Source: Solimicrobium silvestre
GTDB taxonomy: Bacteria; Pseudomonadota; Gammaproteobacteria; Burkholderiales; Burkholderiaceae_D
Assembly: GCF_002976435.1 (NCBI RefSeq)
Contig: NZ_PUGF01000036.1
Coordinates: 1-38,119, forward strand
Direction of reading: 5' to 3'
DNA length: 38,119 nt
The first letter of the stretch is position 1; each line of letters starts with the position of its first letter. The position numbers were made by a program, and so were the translations under genes. This document shows, piece by piece, positions 31,561 to 36,168 of this stretch. The notes below the pieces were generated by a model. It was not told the origin of the DNA and did not search any database. It saw nothing but the letters and a program-made list of their open reading frames with translations.

Positions 31561-32314
31561 GCCAAACAATCATTTAGCCAGCACCGCGTTAATTAGTATC
31601 AGCCTGTGCTTGCTATGTTTAATTTCTAACGACGCATTTGCACAAGTCCCCGTGGTGACTAGCACACCCACTACCGGTGGGGGTCAAAATTATGTCTTGA
31701 GTATTCAGACACTGCTATTTTTAACCTCACTGTCCTTCCTGCCCGCTGCTTTATTAATGATGACGAGCTTTACCCGCATCGTCATTGTGCTTTCCATGTT
31801 GCGGCAGGCGATAGGCACGGCAAGCTCTCCGCCTAACCAGGTGATTATTGGCTTATCGTTATTTTTAACTTTGTTTGTGATGAGTCCGGTCATCGACAAA
31901 ATTTATCAAGATGCGTATCAGCCCTTTAATGAAAACAAAATCACCTTAACCGATGCGTTAGATAAGGGAGCAAAGCCACTCAAACAATTCATGATGAAGC
32001 AAACTCGCCAGGCTGATTTAGCGCTCTACATCAAACTTGCCCGTTCGCCTCAAATACAGGGCCCCGAAGACGTGACATTAACCGTGTTGATTCCAGCTTT
32101 TATCACCAGCGAACTTAAAACCGCATTTCAAATCAGCTTTGCCATTTTCATTCCATTTTTAATTATTGACATGGTCGTAGCGTGTGTATTGATGTCGATG
32201 GGGATGATGATGATGTCACCCGCCACGGTCTCCTTGCCTTTTAAAATAATGTTATTCGTTTTAGTCGATGGCTGGCAGTTATTAATAGGTTCATTAGCAC
32301 AGAGTTTTTATTAG
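31544..32314 (+). CDS. fliP: Flagellar type III export gate protein FliP
   Basis: A 256-residue export gate component with a cleavable signal peptide (ending near AFAQ, residue 33) and four membrane helices. Motifs LSFLPAALLMMTSFTRIVIV, ALDKGAKPLKQFMMKQTRQA and the LIPAFITSELKTAFQISF helix are FliP hallmarks. With FliQ and FliR it forms the export channel core. Its start lies inside fliO, and it precedes fliQ by 15 bases. Confidence 0.96.
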   Translation: MSKKPKPNNHLASTALISISLCLLCLISNDAFAQVPVVTSTPTTGGGQNYVLSIQTLLFLTSLSFLPAALLMMTSFTRIVIVLSMLRQAIGTASSPPNQVIIGLSLFLTLFVMSPVIDKIYQDAYQPFNENKITLTDALDKGAKPLKQFMMKQTRQADLALYIKLARSPQIQGPEDVTLTVLIPAFITSELKTAFQISFAIFIPFLIIDMVVACVLMSMGMMMMSPATVSLPFKIMLFVLVDGWQLLIGSLAQSFY

Positions 32315-32329
32315 AAGACGGGAGCAAAA

Positions 32330-32599
32330 ATGACCCCTGAACAAGTAATGACTATCGGCCGGCATGCGATGCAAATCACGCTGATGATTGCGATTCCGAT
32401 GTTGCTGGTAGCGCTGACAATTGGGTTGATGGTGAGTATTTTCCAGGCAGCGACGCAGATTAATGAAATGACCTTATCGTTTATTCCTAAGCTGATCGGT
32501 GTGTTTTTAGTGTTGGATCTTGCAGGGCCATGGATGCTGACTATTTTGACCGATTATATGCGGGAGTTGTTTATGGGGATTCCTGGGATGGTGAGTTAA
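32330..32599 (+). CDS. fliQ: Flagellar type III export gate protein FliQ
   Basis: An 89-residue two-helix membrane protein (helices at about 15-38 and 50-75). The FQAATQINEMTLSFIPKLIG motif is nearly universal in FliQ. GGGAG lies before the ATG. Normally fliR follows within a few bases; here about 1.08 kb of repeats separates the two, so fliR may depend on readthrough or its own promoter. Confidence 0.96.
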   Translation: MTPEQVMTIGRHAMQITLMIAIPMLLVALTIGLMVSIFQAATQINEMTLSFIPKLIGVFLVLDLAGPWMLTILTDYMRELFMGIPGMVS

Positions 32600-32650
32600 A
32601 AATTGGGACTTACGCGCTGTAATGCGCTGTTTAGTTAACCAATAACAGCA

Positions 32651-32750
32651 TTAACGTCATCCTCGCGTAGGCGGGGATCCAGTGCACGCAGTACCTTTAG
32701 TGTTCAATTTACTAGCTTCTGGATTCCCGCCTGCGCGGGAATGACGTTAA
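32651..32750. repeat. Palindromic element with 32-bp arms (dRS3-like core)
   Basis: The arms are 32651-32682 and 32719-32750, inverted, matching at 28 of 32 positions, with a 36-base loop. The right arm contains ATTCCC-N8-GGGAAT (32723-32742), the form of the dRS3 repeat of Neisseria and of related proteobacterial intergenic palindromes. It lies 51 bases after the fliQ stop and could act as an RNA hairpin in the fliQ-fliR transcript. Confidence 0.8.
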
Positions 32751-32840
32751 TGGCGAAATGGTTATGCAACTTTTTTGAGCTTAACTGAGCGACTTTAGGC
32801 TACGTGTTGTGCTTTTTAATATTTGCTAGTGGTGATGGTT

Positions 32841-32918
32841 TTGATGTTGATGTTGATGTTGATGTTGATGTTGATGTTGATGTTGATGTTGATGTTGTTT
32901 TTGACGTTGCTTTTGACC
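32841..32918. repeat. Hexanucleotide array TTGNNN, 13 units (nine TTGATG)
   Basis: Nine perfect TTGATG units (32841-32894) are followed by TTGTTT, TTGACG, TTGCTT and TTGACC. On the minus strand this is NNNCAA and would encode alternating Xaa-Gln. It directly joins the outer end of the left arm of the inverted repeat, and a matching inverted array occurs at the right end. Confidence 0.9.
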
Positions 32919-33550
32919 TACCCCCACTTCTAGTTCGGCCGGTTTTTCTAAGGAAAAAAGGATAAGAAAGGTTCGCTGTTTGAGCGTAGCGAGTTTCGAA
33001 CTTTTCCCTTTTTTTCTTAGAAAAATCGGGGTTTCCGAAATAGCGTGGTCGCCTTTTTTGGCCTACCTTTTTTGGCGACGCAAAAAAGGCAGGTAGCTGC
33101 CGGTCTACCACCGGCCCCAAGCCTTAAGTTTGTCATTCAGGTTGATTAATTTAAGTCTGATTAATATCAGGTTGTGATTTTTAAATTCGTCAAAACCGGT
33201 TGATATACGGTTTGTTCTTGAACTGCTTTCGGAGTTGATCCATTGCTTATAGGCCGGTGGTAGACCGGCGGCTAGTTACCTTTTTTGCTTCGCCAAAAAA
33301 GGTAACCCAAAAAAGGCGACCACGCTATTTCGGAAACCCCGATTATTTAACGGAAAAATGGGAAAAGTTCGAAACTCGCTGCGGTGTAAAAACCTTGGGT
33401 ACCTGTGGGAGACTTCCCTTGCAAGGGAAGTCCGTTCCGCAAGCGCGGAGCAATGCTCCACGAAACCCTTGCTACACCTCAAACAGCGAACCTTTCTTAT
33501 CCATTTTCCCGTTAAATAACCGGCCAAACTAGAAGTGGGGGTAGGTCAAA
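32912..33550. repeat. Large inverted-repeat element between fliQ and fliR
   Basis: The left arm (32912-33117) and right arm (33252-33550) are inverted copies with a loop of about 134 bases. The outer ends pair TTTGACCTACCCCCACTTCT (from 32912) with AGAAGTGGGGGTAGGTCAAA (to 33550). The inner ends pair the sequence of 33093-33117 with GGCCGGTGGTAGACCGGC (33252-33269). The right arm carries an extra insert of about 95 bases (33382-33477). No transposase is present, so it looks like a non-autonomous, MITE-like element. Several short ORFs overlap it, but they are read from both arms and look like by-products of the repeat. Confidence 0.85.
33382..33477. repeat. Nested insert in the right arm, with internal hairpins
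   Basis: The left arm reads continuously where the right arm is split (CTCGCTGCG before, CTCAAACAG after). The insert begins GGTGTA, ends TACACC at the arm, and holds the perfect palindrome ACTTCCCTTGCAAGGGAAGT (33412-33431) and further short hairpins. It is probably a second, younger element. Confidence 0.65.
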
Positions 33551-33603
33551 GTCAACAGCAAGGTCAAGGTCAACAGCAACAGCAAAGTCAAGATCAACAC
33601 CAA
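33544..33603. repeat. Degenerate hexanucleotide array NNNCAA, 10 units
   Basis: The units are GGTCAA, AGTCAA, CAGCAA, GGTCAA, GGTCAA, CAGCAA, CAGCAA, AGTCAA, GATCAA and CACCAA. It is the inverted counterpart of the array at 32841-32918 but far more varied. In frame it encodes alternating Gln, ending at a TAA (33610-33612). Confidence 0.8.
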
Positions 33604-33680
33604 CACAAGTAAATATTAACCAACTCAGCACATCAGTAAATAAATAAGATGAACTAATCTAATACCCAAAAAGATCCAAC

Positions 33681-34451
33681 ATGCTCTCCATTTCAAGCGA
33701 TCAATTAATTATCTGGGTAAATTCATTTATCTGGCCCCTAACCCGAATACTCGGTTTAATTGCGATTGCCCCGATCTTTGGCAATGCGGCTATTCCTGTC
33801 CCAATGAAAATCAGCTTCGGCGTAGTGCTAGCCCTTTTAGTCGCCCCCACCCTACATAACCTACCCTTAATTGATCCAATTTCACTACCGGGAATGTTAA
33901 TTTTAATCGAGCAATTTGTGATTGGTGTCGCGATGGGTTTCACCATTCAAGTGGTATTTGGCAGTGTAGATTTAGCGGGCAATTTAATCGGGATGTCGAT
34001 GGGCTTAGGTTTCGCGTCCTTCTTTGATCCACAAACACGCGGCAACACCCCTGCCATCAGCCAATTCCTCACCCTGGTAACCACCATGTTATTTTTAAGC
34101 CTGAATTTACACCTGGCTTTACTCAGCACCTTGGTAGAAAGTTTTACCAAACTCCCGATAGGCGTCGACTTAACACTGCAACCAGGCATTTGGCTACACA
34201 TCGTCAGCGCAGCTTCGGTCATTTTCAGTTCTGGCGTTCAACTGGCACTGCCCATTATCGCGGCCTTATTAGTGACCAATATCGCCCTGGGAATTTTAAC
34301 CAGAGCAGCGCCGCAACTGAATATTTTCGGGATTGGCTTCCCCATTACCATGACGGTCGGCTTCCTAATGTTGTTCATCATCATCCCTTACCTCGCACTT
34401 CCGCTACAGAAAATATTAGAGTTTGGGATACAGCTGGCCGCTCTGCGTTAA
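33681..34451 (+). CDS. fliR: Flagellar type III export gate protein FliR
   Basis: A 256-residue membrane protein with about six helices, completing the FliPQR export channel. SFIWPLTRILGLIAIAPIFG, IPVPMKISFGVVLALLVAPT and the late LLVTNIALGILTRAAPQLNI with the FGIGFPITMTVGFLML stretch are FliR hallmarks. The start has no strong ribosome binding site, and the gene is cut off from fliQ by the repeat block. The last 67 codons occur again at 35936-36139 with an identical protein product. flhB does not follow in this window. Confidence 0.95.
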   Translation: MLSISSDQLIIWVNSFIWPLTRILGLIAIAPIFGNAAIPVPMKISFGVVLALLVAPTLHNLPLIDPISLPGMLILIEQFVIGVAMGFTIQVVFGSVDLAGNLIGMSMGLGFASFFDPQTRGNTPAISQFLTLVTTMLFLSLNLHLALLSTLVESFTKLPIGVDLTLQPGIWLHIVSAASVIFSSGVQLALPIIAALLVTNIALGILTRAAPQLNIFGIGFPITMTVGFLMLFIIIPYLALPLQKILEFGIQLAALR

Positions 34452-34552
34452 CATCCGTTTTAGTTTCAGTATCTCTGCCAACAAATTGAATAGAAAACAC
34501 AGGTAAAAAACAGCTTGCGTGTTCAGACACACGGGAAACATATAAAAAAATA

Positions 34553-35935: not shown

Positions 35936-36168
35936 CTGCCCATTATTGCAGCCTTATTAGTGACTAATATCGCCCTGGGAATTTTAACCAGAGCAGCGCC
36001 GCAACTGAATATTTTCGGGATAGGCTTCCCAATTACCATGACAGTCGGCTTCTTAATGCTGTTCATCATCATCCCTTACCTGGCACTTCCGCTACAGAAA
36101 ATTTTAGAGTTTGGAATACAGCTGGCAGCACTGCGTTAATACCCGCTTTAGTTTCAGCAAATCTGCGG
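35936..36168 (+). pseudogene. Second copy of the fliR 3' end (truncated fliR)
   Basis: Positions 35936-36168 repeat 34248-34480 in the same direction, 1,688 bases apart. The copy codes LPIIAALLVTNIALGILTRA and on to the same C-terminal LAALR and stop (36137-36139). The about 14 base differences in the coding part are all synonymous. The match continues about 28 bases after the stop and then ends. The first two thirds of fliR are missing, so this copy alone cannot make FliR. Confidence 0.9.

Follow-up and report, generated by a model that had tools for sequence, protein, structure and literature searches.

The flagellar genes fliQ and fliR are normally adjacent, and the distance between them in Solimicrobium silvestre raises the question of what has come to lie there, how it arrived, and what it means for fliR. 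In the window, by which we mean the whole analysed stretch of 38,119 nucleotides from this genome, the two genes are 1081 bp apart, compared with 7, 42, 43, and 53 bp in four congeners. The original prediction described a long inverted structure splitting the pair, free of a transposase and similar to a MITE. The structure and the split are real, the predicted arm limits are correct to within a few tens of bases, and no transposase is evident. The inverted repeat (~32838-33605) has arms that are 83-89% complementary and consists of two collinear block pairs, 32985-33116 with 33252-33383 (132 nt, 89%) and 32857-32984 with 33478-33605 (128 nt, 83%), which are offset because an extra palindrome of ~95 nt (~33384-33478) lies in the loop of the right arm. 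Hexamer arrays stretch the limits of the element to about 32838 and 33605, and the ORFs of at least 60 aa within it appear to be translations of the repeat and its arrays. Both flanking genes are intact. The genus of the window falls in the Oxalobacteraceae; among named carriers of fliR, Sapientia aquatica SA-152 and two MAGs of the Oxalobacteraceae come closest. The features around the element are the following:

32330-32599, forward strand: fliQ, intact, 89 aa (PF01313, E 3.9e-30)
32649-32752, no strand assigned: separate inverted repeat with 34-nt arms, 88% complementary, in the fliQ-fliR gap and outside the element
33681-34451, forward strand: fliR, intact, 256 aa (PF01311, E 5.4e-67)

By eye, the separate repeat at 32649-32752 resembles the CGTC-tagged REP pairs in the accessible part of PMC3733652.

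The element is absent from the fliQ-fliR gap of the four congeners, and it is neither single copy nor the same in all relatives. A DNA search of the S. silvestre genome, in which 40 of 73 first-look candidates were scored, gave at least 137 matches that group into about 40 regions, and an 18-mer from the element occurs at 40 genome sites with at most two mismatches versus 0 for the reversed pattern; these two results indicate that the repeat is not due to chance. An ordinary attenuator or terminator specific to the fliQ-fliR operon, an idea to which the very stable pairing of the two arms lends some appeal, is therefore extremely improbable: the unit also occurs in about 40 unrelated regions, it is missing from the four congeners, and the terminator-like sites found by a consensus scan (3, compared with 1.9, sd 1.2, in shuffles) are within shuffles plus one sd.

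Reading the window together with 39 further genome stretches yielded 45 arms, 42 with the common core and 3 of a variant subfamily. At least four and up to 24 NNKTTG units directly precede the core in 39 of the 42 arms, and these hexamer arrays vary from copy to copy. The left-end consensus recurs at 14 genome sites with at most three mismatches; its likeness to the right end was judged by eye only. Under crude ORF calling, none of the 40 copy groups of this genome lies inside a called ORF and 23 of 35 single copies are flanked by two called ORFs. Of these 23, 18 lie between genes of the same direction (opposite to the element in 12 cases and with it in 6), 4 between convergent genes, and 1 between divergent genes; insertion would thus be tolerated at gene ends. 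The inconsistent orientation of copies relative to genes lends no support to a fixed mRNA role. Because copies sit at several contig ends of this assembly, the element evidently breaks assemblies. Mean identity among copies is 87.2% within this genome (351 pairs) and 87.4% within G001 (15 pairs), as opposed to 75.9% between the two (162 pairs), so that copies from one species resemble each other more closely than they do those of another, and amplification appears to be species-wise. A protein-coding reading was tried and rejected: lengths modulo 3 are unconserved (19, 16, 9) and any given frame is open in at most 25 of the 44 copies, from which we conclude that the element is not a protein.

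Comparison of the copies indicates that the element is better described as a convergent pair, that is, two copies, of one dispersed and conserved structured unit. Each unit consists of an NNKTTG hexamer array followed by a fold of ~193 nt. The fold begins with one very long helix, continues with a hairpin that is able to pair through its loop with bases just upstream, and ends with a G+C hairpin. The order of parts is the array, a CCAC-type outer strand, the long helix with a highly variable middle, and the loop motif TGTYTGAGCGNAGCGAGTTT, 3' of which follow GGTCGCC, a pyrimidine stretch, stem 2 (e.g., TACCTTTTTTGGCGACGCAAAAAAGG), and the G+C-rich stem 3. In the window these parts are located as follows:

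32838-32915, forward strand: arm 1 hexamer array, 13 NNKTTG-type units
32916-33116, forward strand: arm 1 core (covariance-model match 32924-33116, model R1, 229.2 bits)
32930-33043, forward strand: arm 1 long helix with outer, variable, and inner stems and the loop motif (consensus fold, covariation)
33049-33052, forward strand: arm 1 loop-pairing helix, 5' strand, TCGC (window sequence; helix tested on relatives)
33062-33093, forward strand: arm 1 stem 2 hairpin (inverted repeat, consensus fold)
33075-33078, forward strand: arm 1 loop-pairing helix, 3' strand, in the stem 2 loop
33099-33115, forward strand: arm 1 stem 3, G+C hairpin (consensus fold)
33117-33251, no strand assigned: spacer of the convergent pair, resembling by eye the spacers of other pairs in the genome
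33252-33546, reverse strand: arm 2, the second copy in opposite orientation (model match 33252-33538, R1, 197.2 bits)
33384-33478, no strand assigned: second palindrome, inserted within the long-helix loop of arm 2, present in 7 of the 45 arms of the genome
33547-33605, reverse strand: arm 2 degenerate hexamer array

Spacers that look similar by eye were noted in this genome at L030, L031, L039, L040, L041, L046, and L053. A related-looking insert stands near stem 3 in five places of the genome, and an IS end lies at about the same position of stem 2 in at least seven copies, mostly near contig ends (L038, L056, L057, L059, L060, L061, and L064 under a strict pattern); the stem 2 hairpin seems to be a preferred IS target.

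Arm 1 has a predicted folding energy of -83 kcal/mol (z -5.12). To assess whether the fold is conserved, we used three sets of copies: 34 copies from three species (A1), from which the covariance model R1 was built, 44 copies of which 31 are from outside the genus (A3), and 58 copies from the order, the class, and plasmids (A4). The consensus fold of A1 (RNAalifold) has an energy of -80.95 kcal/mol and 64 pairs, 30 of which changed on both sides in at least one copy. In A3, 98.7% of cells are paired compared with 43.5-55.7% in slid controls, a value reached in 0 of 500 shuffles; 42 of the 64 pairs changed on both sides, and the covariation score is 0.645 versus 0.168 in shuffled and at most 0.101 in slid controls. 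In A4, 92.0% of cells are paired versus 39.2-44.2% in slid controls and 59 of the 64 pairs changed on both sides. Alignments A3 and A4 were made to fit the model structure, which biases them in its favour; the controls by sliding and shuffling, like the alignment-free loop test described later, do not share this bias in the same way. The single-stranded loop motif is conserved down to the class level and the variable stem is replaced block-wise between copies. As far as these sequences tell, it is by its fold and not by its sequence that the repeat retains its identity.

The stem 2 loop of the window, GGCGA, complements TCGCC just upstream, and in relatives the loop and the upstream strand change together (TATCC/GGATA, CGTGC/GCACG), both by eye. 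The four pairs of this helix that are free of stem 2 have 84.0% of cells paired in A4, a value reached in 0 of 500 shuffles, and a covariation score of 0.486 compared with 0.170 in shuffled and at most 0.160 in slid controls, whereas among the five measures taken, the counts of covarying pairs (385 of 500) and of pair types (131 of 500) are within the range of the shuffles. In the alignment-free test, a hairpin was detectable in 48 of the 58 copies, and in 39 of these 48 the loop forms four or more Watson-Crick pairs with the upstream strand, versus a mean of 11.7 and a maximum of 21 of 48 in swapped controls, and for loops other than those of GCGA/GCGG type the corresponding values are 23 of 29 versus a mean of 5.2 and a maximum of 11. 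This helix may form an H-type pseudoknot or may compete with stem 2.

To compare the two strands, we excluded G-U when choosing pairs, which makes the choice the same on both. With pairs chosen in this way, the strand running from the array to stem 3 carries 77 G.T versus 8 A.C cells in A3 and 13 versus 1 in A1; with the usual fold the counts are 132 versus 8 and 43 versus 5, respectively. The opposite-strand fold of A1 has 15 cells of each kind, but these occupy 3 G.T versus 10 A.C columns, and the signal is weaker in A4 (98 G.T, 45 A.C, and 212 other cells). Because G.T is kept far over A.C on it, we conclude that the strand from the array to stem 3 is the one that folds, and it would do so as RNA or as single-stranded DNA. 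Compensatory changes beyond those in the controls together with strand-specific wobble place the element, by sequence criteria, among structured single-strand elements. We also considered that the arms of a palindrome are kept complementary by mutation (template-switch correction or cruciform resolution) with no selection on the fold. The block-wise replacement of the variable stem is in keeping with this, as are the two orientations found at one locus and the many inverted pairs, which point to active inverted-repeat recombination. However, correction of this kind would erase both kinds of mismatch alike, yet G.T exceeds A.C by 77 to 8; moreover, the two strands of the loop-upstream helix do not belong to one palindrome, and the conserved loop motif would be left unexplained. 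We consider this explanation very unlikely.

Matches to the models extend far beyond the genus. At the family level, R1 has matches in 127 of 294 genomes and 29 of 44 genera, and at the order level in 110 of 300 genomes and 56 of 135 genera. The second model, R2, has matches in 91 of 369 genomes and 74 of 272 genera at the class level and in 62 of 299 genomes and 26 of 154 genera at the phylum level. The thresholds of these surveys differed (0.01, 0.01, 0.001, and 0.0001), and because the best six to eight candidates per genome were scored the numbers per genome are not copy counts. Some class-level matches (e.g., G655) cover the long hairpin only. Beyond the class, the listed R2 matches are all within one family (f244), and seven copies on that side (L295-L301) keep the order of parts, by eye. 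Weaker model matches are found in Chitinibacter and Caballeronia, and a Variovorax paradoxus plasmid carries a divergent pair (L155; 114.7 and 113.6 bits). In DNA searches, the window arm had no match among plasmids, and the copy of a relative matched seven plasmid records, mostly in the 3' part only, and had no match among phages.

Outside the genus of the window, neighbouring units are divergent in 36 cases, tandem in 3, and convergent in 0; in this tally a locus found twice was counted once, five of the 36 divergent pairs represent one orthologous locus, and eight wide pairs picked for cargo are excluded, among them L192, in which a facing pair of units is separated by 3.7 kb. The five complete pairs of the S. 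silvestre genome are all convergent and have a common spacer. Gaps between neighbouring units outside the genus are mostly 27-284 bp, and a few measure 456-949 bp. Among 27 copies from other genera, 12 have three or more NNKTTG units in the 100 bp upstream and 0 in the 100 bp downstream (0.06% of shuffles); at 19 order-level loci, the orientation of which was not normalised, arrays were found once upstream and once downstream.

Within the family, a second genus offers an orthologous gap for comparison: the divergent pair is present there in six of nine genomes and a copy cut by a contig end in one, and the loci of the other two, which are more diverged, lack a unit and have a few tens of bases in the gap. 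Where present in full at this gap (L084, L179-L183), the pair has one orientation in two genomes and the reverse in four, as can be read from its unequal arms, and the two orientations occur in different species. The flanks of L084 and relatives show a GTAG-like inverted repeat (GTAGGGCGGGTGCAACCCGC) on either side of the element in several g33 genomes, g33 being a genus. Filled and empty sites are too diverged to fix the ends, and neither a target-site duplication nor exact ends could be established at the sites compared. The proposed likeness to MITEs holds in that the element is multicopy, non-coding, dispersed, and absent from relatives. Clean terminal inverted repeats, a target-site duplication, and a parental IS, which a MITE in the strict sense would have, were not found, the IS in a search of this genome with the left-end pattern. 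Because no target-site duplication, exact end, or mobilising gene was found, transposition of the unit is only inferred.

Small orphan genes lie inside some wide divergent pairs (L104, L165, L186, L187, L188, and L083). Cargo genes were examined in seven stretches chosen for their wide pairs and thus represent a selected set; five of the seven cargo proteins have no Pfam family at E 0.01, one is weak below the cut-off, and one is a DUF6988 protein, which is also the one of the seven that matches a PADLOC candidate model. A scan of 2.0 of the 2.72 Mb of G335 found six matches, including two tight divergent pairs, and no cargo, which leaves cargo unsupported as a general feature. A far-reaching proposal would be that these Proteobacteria-wide, pseudoknotted, single-strand-folded elements are the ends of an unrecognised mobile unit, in which divergent pairs, driven by a fold-reading enzyme, move whole, flip, and in some cases enclose small orphan genes, and that in the lineage of the window a half-unit escaped, was amplified, and gave the convergent double that splits fliQ and fliR. 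We regard this proposal as doubtful.

The reading that we prefer, and hold with moderate confidence, is simpler, namely an inserted, non-coding, dispersed repeat that is defined by its fold, folds as a single strand, and has multiplied by inferred transposition. Dispersal, absence from the gap of relatives, the conserved fold, and the folding strand are established at the level of sequence. Copies would arise by transposition in trans through an enzyme that recognises the folded strand, and the S. silvestre genome would have amplified a single-unit form as well as a convergent double form, to which the window copy would belong.

A search for genes that recur beside the element in 65 loci found none except at one orthologous locus and the element's own translations. 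Two candidate partners were tried and rejected: an RVT_1 match is absent from 4 of 12 copy-bearing genomes, which speaks against a retron or reverse-transcriptase partner, and among 26 Y1_Tnp loci from 14 genomes there is not one with a copy closer than 1.5 kb (best model match E 0.26), which speaks against RAYT/Y1 as a partner in cis. The latter result also bears on the explanation that the units are terminal repeats or relics of an IS200/IS605-type system (Y1, RAYT/TIRYT), which would make the unit an outsized member of the REP/BIME kind or akin to the TIRs of TIRtrons (Di Nocera et al. 2013). Hairpins in inverted pairs and dimers are a hallmark of REP/BIME and TIR families in the accessible parts of their descriptions (PMC3733652, PMC2817692), and Y1_Tnp genes are present in 13 of the 14 copy-bearing genomes. 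Against this stand the 26 loci with no adjoining copy, genome G319, which has at least eight element matches and no Y1_Tnp match, and the length of ~193 nt compared with 20-40 bp for REPs, making this origin quite unlikely.

The functional alternative is a non-coding RNA family, acting in trans or as a local regulator, that is multicopy by chance and whose transcription would start on the array side and run outward. Covariation in 42 of 64 pairs along with a covarying pseudoknot-like helix, the single folding strand, and the conservation of TGTYTGAGCGNAGCGAGTTT down to the class level are all what such a family would display; however, copy number ranges from few to over 40, gene context is unconserved, and the window copy has no promoter-like site by consensus scan. 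Searches of the window region 32200-34200 and of 10 loci with relatives against Rfam 15 matched no family (best E 0.11, chance level). On balance we judge an RNA function unlikely and retain the fold-defined inserted repeat as the preferred reading.

Several known repeat classes share parts of this description. BOX elements have a variable number of internal units. Integron attC sites are folded single strands read more by structure than by sequence; unlike attC sites, which stand in direct arrays, the units described here are in inverted arrays. Like bacterial MITEs and structured repeats (bcr1, ERIC, NEMIS/Correia, RUP, and BOX), the element is short, non-coding, dispersed, and intergenic with stable hairpins; unlike bcr1, ERIC, NEMIS, RUP, and BOX, it has a ~193-nt fold with a loop-upstream helix kept across genera by compensatory changes, is spread beyond one species group, and showed no clean terminal repeats or target duplication. 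As far as the accessible parts of the sources go, it shares with REP/BIME and their RAYTs the inverted hairpin pairs, the mostly intergenic location, and complementary changes that keep the palindrome, and differs from REPs in unit length (~193 nt versus 20-40 bp), in having no evident GTAG tag, and in the 26 Y1_Tnp loci that lack a copy (PMC2817692, PMC3733652). The TIRs of TIRtrons/TIRYTs are likewise described there as long inverted-repeat families of some species, some of them self-complementary and occurring as dimers (PMC3733652; see also PMC6006769), whereas no adjoining tyrosine transposase was found here, a comparison made by description only (PMC3733652). The Beta-proteobacterial repeat element (BRE) is, like ours, a dispersed intergenic repeat of Burkholderiales; by the accessible part of its description, which is the only basis of this comparison, it is ~90 bp long, G+C-rich, and arranged in tandem clusters, as opposed to a unit of ~193 nt (PMC3110155). 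Judged by these partial descriptions, BRE and TIRtron repeats are the nearest published candidates and may overlap in part with the family. A text search that included oligonucleotides and FFASPKKV, with subscription journals and preprints outside its reach, found no published description of the element. Most likely, these copies represent a family of structured mobile repeats that is new and widely distributed, with a breadth and a conservation of structure that are unusual for dispersed repeats.

Dispersed bacterial repeats are usually bound to a species and defined by sequence, whereas this repeat is defined by its fold, which is kept across many genera while copies turn over. Should the repeat be mobile, its recognition would be via a single-strand fold, with no associated gene found so far, and should it be an RNA, it would represent a large uncatalogued family; whichever reading holds, the covariance model provides a handle for annotating it. 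The window demonstrates that the repeat can land inside a flagellar operon.

With regard to fliR, the very long hairpin envisaged in the original prediction is borne out by RNA folding: the stretch 32838-33605 has a predicted energy of -452.7 kcal/mol compared with -99.0 and -124.9 kcal/mol for the arms alone, and the two arms pair together. No result supports the block of translation or the transcript end before fliR that the prediction also raised. In a transcript running from fliQ to fliR, the arms would pair into one giant hairpin that would separate fliR from its partner genes and leave the fliR gene itself intact. On this folding model, coupled expression of fliR is probably weakened while the gene is not destroyed, and it is plausible that fliR expression is reduced or uncoupled. 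Farther downstream, the 3' end of fliR is duplicated (34248-34478 and 35936-36166, 91.8% identity over 231 bp, with a PF01311 protein match), and a PEP-CTERM gene lies on the opposite strand between the two copies; this duplication looks like an insertion that duplicated the end of the gene.
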